From contig NZ_FNTJ01000001.1 of NCBI RefSeq assembly GCF_900105185.1, positions 2,190,501 to 2,254,500 of the forward strand: a stretch of DNA of 64,000 nt, read 5' to 3'. The position numbers were made by a program, and so were the translations under genes. Within the stretch, counting starts at the first letter, position 1; every line of letters starts with the position of its first letter. A model generated the notes under the pieces. The model was not told the origin of the DNA. It searched no databases and worked only from the letters and a program-made list of their open reading frames with translations. Origin of the DNA: Pseudomonas saponiphila. Its GTDB lineage: Bacteria > Pseudomonadota > Gammaproteobacteria > Pseudomonadales > Pseudomonadaceae. Shown piece after piece: positions 1-6,400 of this stretch.

Positions 1-1012
1 GGGCTTGCGGGCGCACGCTGTAGATCAGGCTCTGGCTGGTAACGTGGACCGCCTGCAGGCCCAGGTCGAAAGTGATCACCCCGACGAGCAGGGCCCACAG
101 GGAGGATTGGGTAAAGGCCAGGGGCAACCAGGACAGCAGCATCAGCGCCAAGGCCAGGCCACTGGTCCATTGCGCCAGCCCGCGATCCGCCAGGTGCCCG
201 GCCCGTGCCGCGCCCAGTGCGCCTGCGGCGCCGGCCAGGCCAAACAGCCCGATCTCGGTGTGTGACAGCGACAGCGGTGGGGCGCTCAGGGGCAGCACCA
301 GCGGGGTCCATAAGACCGTGCCGGCAGCGAAGATCAGCATGGCCAGGACCGCCCGGTCGCGCAGGACCTTTTCCTCCTTGAACAACAGCAGCAGCGAGCC
401 GAGCAGTTGCCCGTAGCGCTGCACCGCTGGCGGCTGTTCAGCAGTCGGCAGCACCTTCCACAGGGCCAGGGCCACCAGCAGGGTCAGCCCGGCCGACAGC
501 AGGTACACCGAGCGCCAGCCCGCCAGATCGGCCATGGTGCCGGCCACGGTACGGGCCAGGAGGATGCCCACCACGATGCCGCTGGTGACCATGCCCACCA
601 CCCGTCCGCGCTGGGCGACCGGCGTCAGGTGGGCTGCGTAGGCCACCAGCACCTGGGTCACGACCGCCAGCAGGCCGGTGCAGGCCATGCCCAGTAACAG
701 CCAGGCGCTGCTGGGGGCCAAAGCCACGGTCAACAGGGCCAGGACCGACAGCAGGGTCTGGCTGACGATCAAGCGCCGGCGATTGAGCAGGTCGCCCAGG
801 GGCACCAGCAACAGCAGGCCGAGACCGTAACCCACCTGGGTCAGGGTGATGACGATGCCCACCGTGGCCGGTGCCAGGTCGAAGGCCTGGGCCATGGCGT
901 CCAGCAGCGGTTGGGCGTAGTACACGTTGCCCACCGCCAGCCCGCAGGCCGCGGCGAACAGCAGCACCACCTTGGCTGAAAGTGGCGAGGGGGTTGAGGA
1001 TTCTGATGACAT
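1..1012 (-). CDS. MFS transporter, drug/sugar exporter type (3' end outside window)
   Basis: Inner-membrane major facilitator carrier, probably an exporter. The visible N-terminal 337 residues begin MSSESSTPSPLSAKVV and contain about ten hydrophobic helices. A GDLLNRRR loop after helix 2 matches the MFS signature between TM2 and TM3. The C-terminus lies beyond the window edge. The gene is divergent from the HxlR-type regulator, and a perfect palindrome lies 15 bases upstream of the start, so that regulator very likely controls it. The substrate cannot be read from the sequence; the closest general type is the YnfM/arabinose-efflux-like group of permeases. Confidence 0.85.
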   Translation of the reverse strand, partial: MSSESSTPSPLSAKVVLLFAAACGLAVGNVYYAQPLLDAMAQAFDLAPATVGIVITLTQVGYGLGLLLLVPLGDLLNRRRLIVSQTLLSVLALLTVALAPSSAWLLLGMACTGLLAVVTQVLVAYAAHLTPVAQRGRVVGMVTSGIVVGILLARTVAGTMADLAGWRSVYLLSAGLTLLVALALWKVLPTAEQPPAVQRYGQLLGSLLLLFKEEKVLRDRAVLAMLIFAAGTVLWTPLVLPLSAPPLSLSHTEIGLFGLAGAAGALGAARAGHLADRGLAQWTSGLALALMLLSWLPLAFTQSSLWALLVGVITFDLGLQAVHVTSQSLIYSVRPQA

Positions 1013-1026
1013 GGCGGACTCCGTAT

Positions 1027-1047
1027 CTGGTTTTGTTATAAAACCAG
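1027..1047. promoter_or_regulatory. Inverted-repeat operator between MFS gene and hxlR
   Basis: CTGGTTTT-N5-AAAACCAG, an 8-bp perfect inverted repeat, lies in the 102-bp divergent intergenic region. HxlR-family dimers typically bind such palindromes, so this is the likely operator for both genes (inference). Confidence 0.6.
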
Positions 1048-1114
1048 TTGTACGGTAGTGATCGCGGTTTTATATTGCAACCACTTTTCCGCTGCCTGTC
1101 TGGAGAATCCCAAC

Positions 1115-1561
1115 ATGGTCAAACGCACTAGCCTGCAAGATGCTGAGTGCCCGGTGGCTCGCTCCTTGGACGCCATTGGTGACTGGTGGTCGTTACTGAT
1201 CGTGCGTGATGCCTTCGACGGCATCCGCCGCTTTGGCGAATTCCAGCGCAATCTGGGCATGGCCAAGAACATCCTCGCCGCGCGCCTGCGCACCTTGGTG
1301 GAACACGGGGTGCTGGCGGTTGTGCCAGCCTCCGATGGCAGTTCCTATCAGGAGTACGTGCTGACGGAGAAGGGCAGGGGGCTGTTTCCTCTGATCATTG
1401 GTCTGCGCCAATGGGGCGAGGCGTTTTTCTACAAGGAGGGTGAGGCGCATTCGCGGATGGTCGACCGGGAAACCGGGCAACCGCTGCCGGCACTGGAACT
1501 GCGTACGGCGGATGGGCGCTTGCTGGGGCCGGACGATTGCCTGCGGGTGCCGGCGTCGTGA
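1115..1561 (+). CDS. HxlR-family transcriptional regulator
   Basis: A 148-residue winged-helix DNA-binding protein of the HxlR/YodB type. It has the family pattern of an N-terminal Cys (residue 10, in DAECPVARSLD), a GDWWSLLIVRDAF helix, an RFGEFQRNLGMAKNILAARLRTL recognition region and a wing ending in YVLTEKGR. I chose the ATG at 1115 because TGGAGA lies about 9 bases upstream and the family begins close to this point; an in-frame start at 1058 would run through the operator region. It is divergent from an MFS exporter, which it probably represses together with itself. The single N-terminal Cys could make it redox- or aldehyde-responsive, as in other HxlR proteins (inference). Confidence 0.85.
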   Translation: MVKRTSLQDAECPVARSLDAIGDWWSLLIVRDAFDGIRRFGEFQRNLGMAKNILAARLRTLVEHGVLAVVPASDGSSYQEYVLTEKGRGLFPLIIGLRQWGEAFFYKEGEAHSRMVDRETGQPLPALELRTADGRLLGPDDCLRVPAS

Positions 1562-1567
1562 GCACAT

Positions 1568-1598
1568 GACGACTGCGGGAGCGCTTCCCGCAGTCGTC
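1568..1598. terminator. Perfect 13-bp hairpin between convergent genes
   Basis: GACGACTGCGGGA, loop GCGCT, then TCCCGCAGTCGTC. It lies between the convergent hxlR and carboxypeptidase genes. No T-run follows on either strand, so it is a putative bidirectional terminator or a transcript-end stabiliser. Confidence 0.5.
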
Positions 1599-1606
1599 GG
1601 CATGGC

Positions 1607-2761
1607 TTAGCGCAGGCTGTCCACCAGATCGGCGAGGGTACTCAGCACATCCTTGCCCAGTTGCATGGAGCGCTTGCCGGACCAGCCGGTCAGCGGGTTG
1701 GGGGCATCGTCGTGATCCTTGAAGGGCATCTCCAGGGTCAATGCCAGGCAGTCGTATTTTTCCCCGACGGCGTTGCAGGCCAGGGTCATGTTGGCCTCTC
1801 CGGGATTGTCCCGGGCATAACCGTGGGTGGTCTGGAAATCCCGGGTCTGGTGCTTCAGATGGCTGCGGAAATGCTCCTCGAGTGCCGCCAGCCGTGGCGT
1901 GTAGCCCGGGTTGCCTTCGCAGCCGGCGGTGAACACGTAGGGAATCTCTTCATCGCCGTGCACATCGAGGAACAGGTCGACACCGTACCTTTCCATCTGC
2001 TGCTGGACGAACAGCACTTCGGGGCTGAGCTCCTGGCTGGCGTTCTGCCAGGCGCGATTCAGGTCCTGGCCCTTGGCGTTGGTCCGCAGGTGGCCATGGA
2101 ATGCGCCATCCGGGTTCATGTTCGGCACCAGGTACAGATCGGCCTTGGCCAGCAGTGCATTGAGTTCCGGGTCGTCCCGATGCTGCAGGCGCTCGATCAC
2201 GCCTTCCATGAACCACTCGGCCATATGCTCGCCGGGGTGCTGCTGGGCGATGATCCACAGTTTGCGCCGGCCTTGCTCGCCGCTGCCTTTGCGTAGCAGC
2301 TGGATGTCCCGGCCTTCGACGCTTTTGCCCACGGCCAGCAATTGGGTCCCGGCCTTGCTCAAGGCCTGGTCGATCAGCCAGTCGTGGCGTCCGCGGCTGT
2401 AGGGCTCGAAGTAGGCGAACCAGGCGTGGGTCTGGGTGGCTTCCAGATTGAAGCGCAGGGCGTCGCCTTCGAAGATCGTCGGTACGCGAAACCAGTTCAC
2501 ATGGTCATAGGAAGCAACAGCCTGGTAGCCGGTCCAGGCCTTGTTGTAGGAGGACTGGCTGGCATTGGTCAGGCGGAACCAGTGTTCCTGGCCGACATGC
2601 AGGCCGCTGACCTTGAAGTGAAACCACTGGAAATGCGGGCTCTGGGTATCCGGGCGGATGGCCAGCAGGGCTTGCAGTGGATTGCTGATGTCCAGCACTT
2701 TGATGTTGCCACTGTCGAAATCGGCAGTGATTTGAAACGAAGTGTGATTGCCCACGGTCAT
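1607..2761 (-). CDS. M14-family zinc carboxypeptidase, cytosolic type
   Basis: A 384-residue metallopeptidase with no signal peptide. An N-terminal beta-sandwich-like domain (about 1-120) precedes the M14 catalytic domain. Zinc ligands are H175 and E178 in the HPGE motif and H268 in DVHGDEE. NPDG lies at about 216-219, and the probable catalytic Glu is E344 in LTLEMPF. This arrangement matches bacterial cytosolic (CCP-like) carboxypeptidases, which remove C-terminal residues from peptides or proteins. The true substrate is unknown. It appears to be a single-gene transcript, convergent with hxlR. Confidence 0.85.
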   Translation of the reverse strand: MTVGNHTSFQITADFDSGNIKVLDISNPLQALLAIRPDTQSPHFQWFHFKVSGLHVGQEHWFRLTNASQSSYNKAWTGYQAVASYDHVNWFRVPTIFEGDALRFNLEATQTHAWFAYFEPYSRGRHDWLIDQALSKAGTQLLAVGKSVEGRDIQLLRKGSGEQGRRKLWIIAQQHPGEHMAEWFMEGVIERLQHRDDPELNALLAKADLYLVPNMNPDGAFHGHLRTNAKGQDLNRAWQNASQELSPEVLFVQQQMERYGVDLFLDVHGDEEIPYVFTAGCEGNPGYTPRLAALEEHFRSHLKHQTRDFQTTHGYARDNPGEANMTLACNAVGEKYDCLALTLEMPFKDHDDAPNPLTGWSGKRSMQLGKDVLSTLADLVDSLR

Positions 2762-3017
2762 GTTCGGTTCCTGTACAGGATTGTTATGACCGTCACTCTA
2801 CACACTGGAGAAGGTAATAGAAGGGGGGGGCGTCGTCCTTGACGCCGAAGCAGCTTAGTGGCTATGCGATTGATTCTCAAGCGCTACTTTTTTCTTTGCC
2901 CGGAGCGTGGCGTCTGGCGCTGACTTGCAAAAGGACATTCTTTTGCTATCATCGCCGCCATTATTTTTAGCGGCACCCACGTCTTCATTAGCCTGAAGCC
3001 AAGCCAGAAAAACTGGC
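2762..3017. other. Intergenic region upstream of the carboxypeptidase
   Basis: No convincing gene. It holds a tract of eight G (2823-2830) and a small GGCGTC/GACGCC hairpin just after it. A hairpin-forming GCCAG/CTGGC lies at 3004-3016 beyond the PrrF terminator. An open frame antisense to PrrF here has no family features. Confidence 0.4.
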
Positions 3018-3046
3018 AAAAAAAAGACCCGGCAAAAAGCCGGGTC
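3018..3046 (-). terminator. PrrF intrinsic terminator
   Basis: Eight-bp stem GACCCGGC/GCCGGGTC (3026-3033 with 3039-3046), 5-nt loop, and eight U on the minus strand from 3025 down to 3018. Confidence 0.9.
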
Positions 3047-3132
3047 AAAAACCGTGATTAGCCTGATGAGGAGATAATCCAAAGGTCCGACCTAAGGTCC
3101 TTTGGGTTATCGACCGATCTCGCGATCAGCTG
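3018..3132 (-). ncRNA. prrF: PrrF iron-responsive small RNA
   Basis: Read on the minus strand, about 115 nt. It starts near CCAGCTGATCGCGAG and contains the ATTATCTCCTCATCAGG and CTAATCACGG blocks that I recognise as the conserved target-pairing core of Pseudomonas PrrF. It ends in the GACCCGGC-AAAAA-GCCGGGTC hairpin (3026-3046) followed by eight U (3018-3025). The Fur box and promoter sit immediately upstream. In pseudomonads PrrF is made under iron starvation and, with Hfq, silences iron-using proteins such as SodB and TCA-cycle enzymes. A second, separate PrrF copy is expected elsewhere, as in non-aeruginosa pseudomonads. Confidence 0.9.
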
Positions 3133-3138
3133 GATGCA

Positions 3139-3166
3139 ATAATAATCATTATCATTTGCAAGTCAA
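3139..3166 (-). promoter_or_regulatory. prrF promoter with overlapping Fur box
   Basis: Minus-strand -35 TTGACT (3161-3166), 16-bp spacer and -10 TATTAT (3139-3144). The Fur 7-1-7 match TGATAAT-G-ATTATTA (3140-3154) lies over the -10 and spacer; it differs from the consensus at the centre base and one other. Fe-Fur binding here would block polymerase, giving the iron repression known for PrrF. Confidence 0.85.
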
Positions 3167-3252: not shown

Positions 3253-3600
3253 CTAGCTTGATCCACAACGCTGGCATTCCAGGCACTTGTCCACCAGGGC
3301 CTTGGCCAGGTCGATCATGTGCACCACCGAAAATGCCAGGTCACGATTGGCACCCCGCAGATTGTTGGCGGCGTCATAGGCGGTGGCCGCTGCACAGCGC
3401 AATAGATCGGATGCATGGATCATGGCTTCCTCACTGCTCAGGCTGCGTCTGATCTCGAAAAACTTTTCATCCTTGCTTGGCTCGGTAATGGCGGGTTTCA
3501 AGTAGTAGTCCATCGCTCGCCGTGCCGCATCGCTATCCTTGAGTGCGTTGAATGTGGCCTCTGTATCGAATTCCTGCACATCCTTGCTGCTTGTGTTCAT
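3253..3600 (-). CDS. Small Pseudomonas-restricted protein, DUF6124/DUF3077-like
   Basis: 115 residues, no signal peptide or membrane segment. DSDAARRAMDYYLKP near residue 22 and EEAMIHASDLLRCAAATAYDAANNL in the middle resemble the DUF6124/DUF3077 families, known almost only from Pseudomonas and without assigned function. The C-terminus carries a C-x2-C-x2-C cluster (CLECQRC) just before the end. It is divergent from the LexA-like regulator, sharing a 133-bp promoter region with repeated ACGTATTGT motifs, so it may be a target of that regulator. Function unknown; the family call is by recognition only. Confidence 0.65.
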   Translation of the reverse strand: MNTSSKDVQEFDTEATFNALKDSDAARRAMDYYLKPAITEPSKDEKFFEIRRSLSSEEAMIHASDLLRCAAATAYDAANNLRGANRDLAFSVVHMIDLAKALVDKCLECQRCGSS

Positions 3601-3653
3601 GAAGTGTTCTGCCCTGATGGTGATAAGGAGAGAGGGGTAGGAACGATGTTAAT

Positions 3654-3726
3654 ACGTATTGTAATTGTGACGAGATTTCAAATACTACAACTTGTGTGTT
3701 GAGGCGGGGAATACACAACGTATTGT
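3654..3726. promoter_or_regulatory. Candidate operator repeats for the LexA-like regulator
   Basis: ACGTATTGT occurs twice in direct orientation (3654-3662 and 3718-3726). The first lies in the palindrome AATACGTATT (3651-3660). Both are in the divergent promoter region, and the second ends 7 bases before the regulator's ATG, so autorepression is plausible. Confidence 0.4.
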
Positions 3727-3733
3727 TCGGCCC

Positions 3734-4399
3734 ATGGACAAATGGATCGAGTTGGTTAAAGCCAACATGAAAGGCCGCAAGGTCACACAGGAAAAACTCG
3801 CCGAGCGTCTGGGCATGTCTCAAGGTGGCATCGGTCATTGGTTGAGCAAGCGTCGCCAGCCGAAGATCGAAGACATGAACCGGGTGCTCGAAGAGATCGG
3901 CATGGGCTTTCTTGAAGTTGCCCTGGTGGTCCGCGAGAAACCCATGCTCGGCGATGATGGCGAACCCCTGGTGGAGGAGCCTTCCTTGCAGCACAAGTAC
4001 AACCCGTATTTCCGGTATCCGGTCAGTGATTGGCGGGAGGTCGGAGAAGTCCGGGAAAGTGGCCAGTCGGCCTATGTCCCCGAGCGTTATGAGCTTTCCG
4101 ATTATCAGGCGCAGGGGGCGGCCTTCTGGTTAGTAGTGGTCGGTGACGCGATGATCGCCCCCAGCGGCCTGAGCATCAGCCAGGGCATGCTGATCCTGGT
4201 GGACCCGGCCGTTGCTGCCGAGCCTGGGAAGTTGCTGGTCGTGCAGTGTCCCGGGAATGACGAGGCGATCTTCCGCAAGTTGGTACAAGAGGGCGGCCAG
4301 CGTTATCTGGTACCACTCAATCCCACTTATCCGAAGATGCTCTACAGCGACGAGTGCCGGGTTATTGGTGTAGTCGTACAAGCAACTGCGAAGTTTTAA
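3734..4399 (+). CDS. LexA/PrtR-like HTH regulator with inactivated S24 peptidase domain
   Basis: 221 residues: Cro/CI-type helix-turn-helix (about 1-60), linker, then an S24/LexA-type C-terminal domain (about 90-221) resembling P. aeruginosa PrtR (VGDxMxAPxGLSI, LVPLNPTYP, VIGVVV). In active family members the nucleophile is Ser in GDSM, the general base is Lys in (F/V)KKL, and the scissile bond is Ala-Gly. Here they read GDAM (Ala139), FRKL (Arg181) and V103-G104. The fold is kept but self-cleavage should be lost, so it cannot respond to RecA in the usual way. ATG 3734 fits the family N-terminus, though no good ribosome binding site is seen; an upstream TTG at 3692 is less likely. Flanked by a DUF6124-like gene and not by a prophage. 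Confidence 0.85.
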   Translation: MDKWIELVKANMKGRKVTQEKLAERLGMSQGGIGHWLSKRRQPKIEDMNRVLEEIGMGFLEVALVVREKPMLGDDGEPLVEEPSLQHKYNPYFRYPVSDWREVGEVRESGQSAYVPERYELSDYQAQGAAFWLVVVGDAMIAPSGLSISQGMLILVDPAVAAEPGKLLVVQCPGNDEAIFRKLVQEGGQRYLVPLNPTYPKMLYSDECRVIGVVVQATAKF

Positions 4400-4410: not shown

Positions 4411-4446
4411 AGCCCCTTCCTACAAATAGAAAGGGGCTTTCTTATT
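4411..4446 (+). terminator. Intrinsic terminator after the LexA-like gene
   Basis: Stem AGCCCCTT (4411-4418) with AAGGGGCT (4431-4438), 12-nt loop, then TTTCTTATT. Lies 11 bases after the stop codon and just before the convergent liuD. Confidence 0.8.
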
Positions 4447-4453
4447 GATAAAG

Positions 4454-6400
4454 TTACTCCAACTCCACCAACGCACTGCCTTCGCTGACCATTTCACCTT
4501 CCTGGCAGTACAGGGCCTTGACGACTCCGGCCTGGGGCGCGCGGATGCTGTGCTCCATCTTCATTGCTTCCAGTACCACCAGTTGCGCACCGGCCTCGAC
4601 GCTTTGTCCGACGCTGACCAGCACCCGCACGATGCTGCCATTCATCGGTGCCGTGAGCCCGCCATGCTGACTGTGGCTGGCATCGGCCGCGGCGATCGGG
4701 TCGTAGGCGGTGATGGCGTGCATGTCGCCCTGCCAGTGCAGGTACAGGGTATCGCCACGACGAATGGCGCGATGTTCACGACGCAGTCCCTGTTGCTCGA
4801 CCCACAGGCGCTCGTTCTGCAACTGATAGGCGGGCGAATGGGCCCCAAGGCTGATGGCCCGGTCCTGGCCGGCACAGCTCAGGTGCAGGCTGGTCTGGGC
4901 CGGCAGGCCGCTGCGCCAGCCGTTGAGCGTCGACCAGGGCGATTGGGGATCGTCAGCGCGCGTGCGCTGCGGCTGACTTTGCGCAAAGGCCTGGGCCGCC
5001 GCCTGCCAGAAGTCCGTAGTCAATTCGCTTGGCGCTGGCAGGAGTTGCTCCTGATAGCGTGGGATAAATCCGGTATCCAGTTGCGCTTGAGCAAATGCCG
5101 GATGGGCAATGATGCGCCGCAGGAACGCCAGGTTGGTTTTCAGGCCGCCGATGGCGAACTCGTCGAGCATGCTCAATAGCCGGAGGCGGGCCTGTTCGCG
5201 GTTCTCGCCCCAGGCGATCAGTTTGCCCAGCATCGGATCGTAGAAGGGCGACACGCTGTCGCCTTCCTCGACCCCACTGTCCACCCGGCGTCCCGGTCCG
5301 GCGGCGGACTCCTGATACAAATCGAGGCGGCCGGTGGCCGGCAGAAAATCATTGCCCGGATCTTCAGCGTAGAGGCGTACTTCAATGGCATGCCCCAGCA
5401 GCGGGACCTGTTCCTGGCTGATGGGCAGGGCTTCACCCTGGGCCACGCGTATTTGCCAGGCCACCAGATCGAGCCCGGTAATGGCTTCGGTAACCGGGTG
5501 TTCCACCTGCAGCCGGGTATTCATCTCCATGAAGAAGAATTCGCCGCGGGCGTCCAGAAGAAACTCCACGGTGCCGGCGCCGACATAGCCGATGGCCTGA
5601 GCGGCACGCACCGCCGCCTCGCCCATGGCCTTGCGCAGCTCGGGGCTCAGGCCCGGAGCGGGGGCTTCCTCGACTACTTTCTGGTGGCGGCGCTGAATCG
5701 AACAGTCGCGCTCGTTGAGGTACAGGCAGTGGCCGTGTTGGTCGGCAAATACCTGGATCTCCACGTGCCGTGGCTTGAGCAGGTACTTTTCCACCAGCAT
5801 CCGCGAGTCGCCGAAGGACGACAGGGCTTCGCGCTGCGCCGAGGCCAGGGCTTCAGCCAGTTGGCTGACGTCCTCGACCACCTTCATGCCCTTGCCGCCA
5901 CCGCCGGCGGTGGCCTTGAGCAGCACCGGGTAGCCGATGCGCTCGGCGGCGCTACGGAAGGTGTCCAGGTCCTGGGCTTCGCCGTGATAACCCGGCACCA
6001 ACGGCACCCCGGCGGTTTCCATCAGCGCCTTGGCCGCTGATTTACTGCCCATGGCGTCGATGGCCGAGGCGGGCGGCCCCAGAAAGATCAGGCCCGCCGC
6101 TTCAATGGCTCGGGCAAAACCGGCGTTCTCCGAGAGAAAGCCGTAGCCAGGGTGAATGGCCTGGGCGCCGCTGGCTTTGGCGGCGGCGATGAGCTTATCG
6201 ATCTGCAGGTAGCTGTCGACGGCCTTGCTGCCGCCCAGATCGACACGGATATCCGCCTCGCGGCTGTGCCGGGCGTCACGGTCGGTGGCACTGTGCACGG
6301 CCACGGTGGTCAGGCCCAGGGCCTTGGCGGTGCGCATCACCCGGCAGGCGATTTCGCCGCGGTTGGCCACCAGCAGGGTGTCTAGAACAGGGGCGCTCAT
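4454..6400 (-). CDS. liuD: Methylcrotonyl-CoA carboxylase, biotin-carrying alpha subunit
   Basis: 648 residues. Biotin carboxylase domain (about 1-450: LLVANRGEIACRV start, GGGGKGMKVV ATP loop, ERDCSIQRRHQKVVEEAPAP, EMNTRLQVEHPVTE) followed by a linker and a C-terminal biotinyl domain with EAMKMEH (biotin-accepting Lys about 614). With LiuB it converts 3-methylcrotonyl-CoA to 3-methylglutaconyl-CoA in leucine breakdown. Last gene of liuABCD; its start overlaps the liuC stop by 4 bases, indicating translational coupling. Pairing with a LiuB-type carboxyltransferase and a crotonase separates it from acetyl- or propionyl-CoA carboxylase alpha subunits. Confidence 0.95.
   Translation of the reverse strand: MSAPVLDTLLVANRGEIACRVMRTAKALGLTTVAVHSATDRDARHSREADIRVDLGGSKAVDSYLQIDKLIAAAKASGAQAIHPGYGFLSENAGFARAIEAAGLIFLGPPASAIDAMGSKSAAKALMETAGVPLVPGYHGEAQDLDTFRSAAERIGYPVLLKATAGGGGKGMKVVEDVSQLAEALASAQREALSSFGDSRMLVEKYLLKPRHVEIQVFADQHGHCLYLNERDCSIQRRHQKVVEEAPAPGLSPELRKAMGEAAVRAAQAIGYVGAGTVEFLLDARGEFFFMEMNTRLQVEHPVTEAITGLDLVAWQIRVAQGEALPISQEQVPLLGHAIEVRLYAEDPGNDFLPATGRLDLYQESAAGPGRRVDSGVEEGDSVSPFYDPMLGKLIAWGENREQARLRLLSMLDEFAIGGLKTNLAFLRRIIAHPAFAQAQLDTGFIPRYQEQLLPAPSELTTDFWQAAAQAFAQSQPQRTRADDPQSPWSTLNGWRSGLPAQTSLHLSCAGQDRAISLGAHSPAYQLQNERLWVEQQGLRREHRAIRRGDTLYLHWQGDMHAITAYDPIAAADASHSQHGGLTAPMNGSIVRVLVSVGQSVEAGAQLVVLEAMKMEHSIRAPQAGVVKALYCQEGEMVSEGSALVELE

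Follow-up and report, generated by a model that had tools for sequence, protein, structure and literature searches.

The closest described counterparts of the protein analysed here are the immunity repressors lambda CI and C2 of phages P22 and L, in which a helix-turn-helix (HTH) domain is joined to an S24 peptidase domain with a scissile Ala-Gly pair, a nucleophilic Ser and a general-base Lys. Their genes face a divergent partner across a short control region; in the phage L record, c2 and cro are divergent and lie 118 bp apart. Natural loss of self-cleavage is already known for two kinds of regulator. According to the available excerpts, Synechocystis LexA is without the Ala-Gly site and the catalytic Ser, has a non-SOS role and is proposed to be adjusted through modification (PMC7567884), and the Gifsy repressors GfoR and GtgR, which match the N-terminal domain of CI only, are closed to self-cleavage and are accompanied by antirepressors (PMC3121763). 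Excerpts of two further papers describe IrvR, which resembles LexA and needs no RecA for its self-cleavage (PMC7101444), and small cI-inactivating proteins whose genes are divergent from that of a transcription factor (PMC10432266). New in the present case is a CI/C2-type group that sits at one place across many Pseudomonas, retains its S24 domain, has the Lys fixed as Arg and has a DUF6124 gene as partner. Literature searches among open-licence papers found no published account of this Pseudomonas locus.

The window, a stretch of 64,000 nucleotides of Pseudomonas saponiphila DNA, contains the features collected in the table. The repressor frame is unbroken over its whole length, as a sequence-only reading of the window had claimed. 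Its product matches the Pfam profiles PF01381 (HTH_3, 30.3 bits against a cut-off of 23) and PF00717 (Peptidase_S24, 69.7 bits against a cut-off of 23.3), the latter with the initial 20 of 116 profile positions unmatched, and so has the domain pair of S24 (LexA-like) self-cleaving regulators. The top solved relative is lambda CI (3bdn, best E 3.6e-24), followed by UmuD and LexA at 1.5e-5 to 3.8e-4. Matches were found in 357 phage records, 300 of which cover at least 80% of the query; among the 15 listed, C2/CI-type repressors are best at 39-41% identity, and four records whose best place has 60-80% identity fall outside those 15. Phage L C2 can be aligned with the window protein over its full length (MAFFT, 39% identity), a relationship that places the protein by descent in the lambda CI/P22 C2 lineage. 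The initial label 'LexA/PrtR-like' is loose, the nearest named families being lambda CI and P22/phage L C2. The names used in the source annotations ('LexA family protein', 'S24 family peptidase', 'SOS-response transcriptional repressor LexA') are misleading for the group of proteins found at the same place.

Table. Features of the repressor locus (positions in the window)
Feature	Position	Strand	Remarks
PrrF small RNA beside the DUF6124 gene	3018-3166	-	RF00444, 170.7 bits
Divergent partner gene, DUF6124 (115 aa)	3253..3600	-	at the position of cro in phage immunity regions
Box A	3651..3665	.	AATAC-n5-GTAAT in the window; conserved
Box B, AAATACTACAANTTGTGTNTTGA	3680..3702	.	conserved; AATAC and GTNTT arms
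Putative repressor promoter, TTGAGG, 16 bp, TATTGT	3699..3726	+	read by eye; ends 7 nt before the ATG
Palindrome AATAC-n5-GTATT	3710..3724	.	conservation does not extend to more distant orthologues
CI/C2-type repressor, predicted peptidase-dead	3734..4399	+	221 aa, frame open
HTH_3 domain, residues 9-56	3758..3901	+	Pfam profile match
Val103-Gly104, scissile Ala-Gly position	4040..4045	+	GTC GGA; variable across orthologues
Peptidase_S24 domain, residues 114-215	4073..4378	+	Pfam profile match
Ala139 codon, nucleophile Ser position	4148..4150	+	GCG
Arg181 codon, general-base Lys position	4274..4276	+	CGC
Convergent neighbour, biotin-dependent acyl-CoA carboxylase subunit (liuD)	4454..6400	-	locus anchor

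We placed the active site by HMMER alignment to lambda CI (3bdn) and by MAFFT alignment to phage L C2. Val103-Gly104 aligns with the scissile Ala-Gly, Ala139 (GDAM) with the Ser of GNSM/GDSM and Arg181 (FRKL) with the Lys of FKKL/FKKY. Both alignments thereby bear out the observation that scissile pair, nucleophile and general base are all replaced; the window protein has none of the three elements of self-cleavage. Of 690 homologues, the 120 listed were aligned with the window protein. All 121 sequences have both Ala139 and Arg181, a constancy beyond what chance or decay would leave, and positions 103-104 are variable (P/T/V/L/A/I/S, then G/A/C/V/M/S or others).

For comparison of loci, we drew on 30 of the 230 matching genus genomes and on 80 of the 169 loci of named genomes, together with 30 hand-chosen, weaker-matching genomes, family and class searches and extra stretches, a sample that is tilted to close relatives. 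A locus entered the comparison if its best ORF scored 50 bits or more with the family profile, which gave 204 loci. A locus was counted as being at the same place if it had as neighbour either DUF6124 or the carboxylase-subunit gene, which we take to be liuD; the active site plays no part in this definition. The final split is 167 same-place loci with 140 distinct proteins, the distinct counts being preferable in view of near-identical pairs among the 167, and 37 loci elsewhere. Two of the latter, L123 and L247, were considered as intact same-place orthologues and rejected: their DUF6124 matches are the antisense of the repressor gene itself. The same artefact underlies the DUF6124 flag of L061, which is kept among the 167 for its liuD.

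A search for same-locus orthologues with GDSM and KKL, the counter-case named by the sequence-only reading, found Lys in none of the 140 distinct same-place proteins. All 140 have Arg at this position, written in five different Arg codons across the 167 loci. At the Ser position, Ala is found in 121, Ser in 15, Leu in 2 and Thr in 2. All three positions are changed in 118 proteins and the intact set occurs in none; each of the 15 Ser-bearing members has Arg, and none has Ala-Gly. The 37 relatives at other places include 27 with an intact set and two with all three positions changed, with Ser (33), Met (2), Ala (1) or Leu (1) at the first catalytic position and Lys (32) or Arg (5) at the second. 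The intact Pseudomonas repressors among them (for example L122, L132-L134, L179-L187) resemble the window protein in their domains and are its relatives in the tree; they differ in having the Ala-Gly/Ser/Lys set, and DUF6124 or liuD accompanies none of the 37 in the DNA examined. A recent mutation or a sequencing error is ruled out by the 121 homologous sequences and the 140 same-place proteins.

The scissile pair behaves differently. Ala-Gly is present in 7 of the 140 distinct proteins (9 of the 167 loci: L003, L004, L031-L035, L042 and L115), including those of P. protegens FD6, of 14B2 and of the 98% identical Au-Pse12, every one with A139 and R181. Because close relatives have this combination, Val103 of the window protein looks recent and local. 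We can thus rule out one coordinated event behind the three losses, which the Ser in 15 distinct members contradicts as well. Of the motif set GDAM/FRKL/VG, whose conservation in Pseudomonas orthologues was in question, Arg is conserved and Ala mostly so, and Val-Gly is not; the description as 'three coordinated losses' has to be given up for a fixed Arg, a labile Ser position and a drifting scissile pair. Compared with C2 and CI, in which Ala-Gly, Ser and Lys are in place, the Lys here is always Arg, the Ser mostly Ala, and the site drifts. Synechocystis LexA provides the precedent of a natural LexA-type regulator minus its self-cleavage residues; as far as the excerpt of PMC7567884 goes, the items named as missing there are Ala-Gly and Ser, whereas the fixed loss in the present group is that of Lys. 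The members that still have Ser or Ala-Gly would suit a repressor turned over on demand, whether through residual activity of its own or through ClpXP or another general protease, and the available part of the IrvR paper (PMC7101444) supplies an example of self-cleavage independent of RecA. We consider such turnover very unlikely, given that Lys is missing throughout and that Ser and Ala-Gly never occur together.

Two side observations concern S24 proteins at other places. In L251, L227 and L229, Ser is combined with Arg at the Lys position, and L251 also has Ala-Gly. A second S24 protein of the host (L178, contig C2:2005456-2005713, minus strand), noticed when part of the host's S24 proteins had been inspected, reads by pattern as having GDAM for GDSM and a candidate Lys kept (MIKEL).

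We built a tree of 73 representatives, chosen at an 85% identity cut, and 200 bootstrap trees. The 43 same-place rows fall on one side of one branch, with support of 96/95 and in 94% of the bootstrap trees. They form a clade if the root lies on the other side; the outgroup is not clean, and several other rows are long-branched. A single replacement of Lys by Arg at the group's base would fit. Over the whole tree, the Ser position requires 11 changes and the Lys position 5, the latter since Arg rows occur outside the group (L135, L227, L228, L229 and L251). Within the group, the Ser position changed repeatedly: the Ser-bearing members are L126 and L237/L238/L241, which read NDSM, and L221, which reads GDSM or GNSM as do L208, L211, L212 and L216 outside the tree; every one of them has Arg and none has Ala-Gly. 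An order in which Lys was lost first and Ser and the cleavage site then drifted fits these data and is not forced by them, the base of the group being a fork without resolution.

We also asked how the protein has been constrained. Median pairwise dN/dS among 12 close orthologues comes to 0.072 for the whole protein (66 pairs); the HTH has 0.025, the linker 0.129 (63 pairs) and the S24 part, residues 113-221, 0.061 (65 pairs). The ratios are rough, having been obtained by simple Nei-Gojobori counting at a median dS near 1 with saturated-dS pairs excluded. Judged by these ratios, the HTH and the S24 domain are kept under purifying selection, the S24 domain in spite of its predicted lack of peptidase activity; dimerisation, as in CI, is the natural guess for its role. 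The Gifsy repressors, as the excerpt of PMC3121763 presents them, share the absence of self-cleavage with the window group; an S24 domain that is retained, constrained and apparently dead sets the window group apart from them. In the clade, conservation reaches 97% or more at residues Q30, G31, G34, H35, W36, L37, R41 and P43, and the recognition helix is near-invariant, as would be expected if a single operator had been conserved.

Not every genome has the gene. At 1e-10, matches were obtained in 230 of 298 genus genomes, host included, some of these matches being intact paralogues, and 68 of 298 have no match at that threshold, so the repressor gene is dispensable in some lineages. A family-wide search gave matches in 87 of 298 genomes and a class-wide search in 10 of 369, host included, the best other match there scoring 63 bits. 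With catalysis lost and the gene absent from some lineages, one might regard the locus as a decaying prophage relic without a function today. The open frame, the low whole-protein dN/dS (median 0.07), the near-invariant recognition helix and the conserved upstream boxes described below make this hardly credible. The intact frame, the old shared loss and the purifying selection on the C-terminal domain instead indicate that the protein is kept for something that has no need of self-cleavage. To this extent the suggestion of a role independent of RecA, rather than decay, stands; the RecA-independence itself we infer.

The neighbourhood of the repressor is equally stable. Of 110 loci chosen by sequence alone, all 110 have liuD and 109 have DUF6124, and by these neighbours, the only ones used to judge the matter, the location is not that of a prophage. 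By tblastn, DUF6124 is found in 166 of the 167 same-place loci, a figure that is partly a product of the same-place definition, and liuD in 165; neither is found at any of the 37 other places. Among the 30 deeper loci L111-L140, 17 have DUF6124, all of them with Arg, and 16 of these also have liuD (L130 lies on short DNA); the remaining 13 have neither neighbour. The layout, two divergent genes across a short control region, is that of c2 and cro in phage L; the locus departs from C2/CI loci in that the partner is DUF6124 rather than cro and in being chromosomal and syntenic beside liuD. Sequence resembling prrF is found in 79 of 80 named loci, at a median distance of 75 bases from DUF6124 (60 to 3052). 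Between the convergent repressor and liuD genes, at 4411-4438, we noted by eye that AGCCCCTT and AAGGGGCT form an inverted repeat followed by a T-rich tail; its loop exceeds the length allowed by the scan used.

Such close pairing raises the alternative that the two genes form a repressor and an antirepressor, the DUF6124 protein binding the uncleavable repressor and freeing it in the way known from phage antirepressors and small proteins. The conserved divergent arrangement, including the loci picked by sequence alone, speaks for this, and so do the published logic of the Gifsy antirepressors (PMC3121763) and that of the cI-inactivating small proteins (PMC10432266), both as given in excerpts. 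Genome G067, which has no repressor match, has half a DUF6124 gene directly after liuD; the remainder of that gene looks to have gone in a single deletion together with the control region and the repressor, which would be in keeping with such a pair. In Pseudomonas phage DVM-2008, moreover, a DUF6124-like gene (35% identity) is divergent from a gene named prtR (L285 2140-3797). PrtR of this phage has the HTH and S24 domains and the divergent neighbour of the window repressor, and is unlike it in having AAG, GNSM and VKQL, which by eye look intact. The P. saponiphila copy of this PrtR (L286, 86% identical) was missed in a search with the window protein at E 0.01 and is thus a distant relative. 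Against an antirepressor, locus L061 retains the repressor and its upstream boxes without DUF6124 (tblastn) and without prrF in the DNA examined, and relatives of DUF6124/DUF3077 are many and dispersed. The host has 8 matches to PF19619 and 9 to PF11275, three being common to both; by coordinates, and for 8 copies also by eye, the DUF6124 gene at 3253..3600 is the only host copy adjoined by an S24 gene, and the prtR pairing in DVM-2008 may therefore be due to chance. On balance we regard the antirepressor pair as rather unlikely.

The wider family gives few hints of function. Relatives of Orf1, the DUF6124-like protein of DVM-2008, number up to 37 per genome, dispersed over the chromosome; at 1e-12 they are matched in 38 of 99 genus genomes, and the host has none at that cut. 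The DUF6124 relatives form an amplified, so far uncharacterised family of small proteins. The DUF6124 protein has no match at E 1 among PDB sequences and matches 23 of 40 members of phrog_6327, a PHROG without an assigned function (best E 4.2e-6). A search of defence families gave nothing for DUF6124; the sole match of the repressor there (mad1, E 0.0038) is a weak one to the HTH. DUF6124 is not named in the open-licence literature searched; DUF3077 is mentioned in one paper.

The 133-bp region between the two genes contains two conserved stretches. Averaged by segment over 104 distinct upstream sequences, the commonest base has a frequency of 0.58 at 3601-3648, 0.81 at 3649-3672 (box A), 0.65 at 3673-3677, 0.90 at 3678-3703 (box B), 0.67 at 3704-3715 and 0.85 at 3716-3733, the box limits having been set after the conservation profile was viewed. 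The box A pattern RTAC-n5-GTA[TAG]T occurs in 102 of the 104 compared with 0.4 in mononucleotide shuffles, a contrast inflated by the relatedness of the sequences. Box B is found within two mismatches in 60 of 60 loci L001-L060; 55 loci of DUF6124 paralogues and 22 repressor loci elsewhere have nothing nearer than five mismatches. Conservation makes boxes A and B candidate operators, although both are imperfect palindromes with unequal arm spacing. The palindrome AATAC-n5-GTATT was tried as a regulon marker and dropped as uninformative, occurring at one place in the genome, as did its backward control.

These data bear on the possibility that the repressor is a graded regulator with targets beyond its own locus, governed by covalent modification or a ligand in the manner of Synechocystis LexA. 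The precedent is a fitting one as far as the excerpt of PMC7567884 describes it, yet that LexA is a global regulator and the window repressor a local one of CI/C2 type. With three mismatches allowed, the 7.4-Mb genome has a single copy of box B (control pattern, none), which argues for a local switch, and we think a graded regulator of this kind unlikely.

A scan for sigma-70 consensus promoters found none, with 0.7 expected in shuffles, which counts against the promoter read by eye at 3699..3726. The distance of GTATnGT from the ATG downstream of it is 14 nt in 96 of the 104 upstream sequences, 15 nt in five and 20 nt in three, and none of the 104 has any of five Shine-Dalgarno-like words sought 4-15 nt upstream of the ATG. 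Together with TTGAGG-16-TATTGT in the window, this spacing and the missing Shine-Dalgarno-like word suggest a leaderless repressor transcript. The mRNA of lambda cI from PRM is leaderless, and the start of the window gene would be of the same type.

Taken together, we find it probable that the gene encodes an immunity repressor of the lambda CI/P22 C2 type that has been domesticated and passed on vertically, is blind to RecA and controls itself and probably DUF6124. The repressor would bind the AATAC/GTATT boxes as a dimer, the dead S24 domain serving dimerisation and cooperativity only, and would repress or tune two divergent promoters, that of DUF6124 and the leaderless one from which it is itself transcribed. 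RecA would be unable to release it; release or modulation might instead come about through the amount of the protein, through a protein partner or through a small ligand. DUF6124 may accordingly be the repressor's target, its antirepressor or both. A more specific proposal, which we put forward as speculative and consider unlikely, is that Pseudomonas took over a phage switch, that the SOS input was cut in the group ancestor by the change from Lys to Arg, and that a DUF6124/DUF3077 member in the cro slot became the new input, binding the uncleavable S24 domain to release the repressor. If this were true, other DUF6124 copies might act on S24 regulators in trans.

As a clear case in which the residues for self-cleavage are lost and the peptidase domain remains under selection, the repressor offers a natural test of what S24 domains do besides proteolysis. 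Through its pairing with the repressor, the DUF6124 family would gain a first functional foothold.
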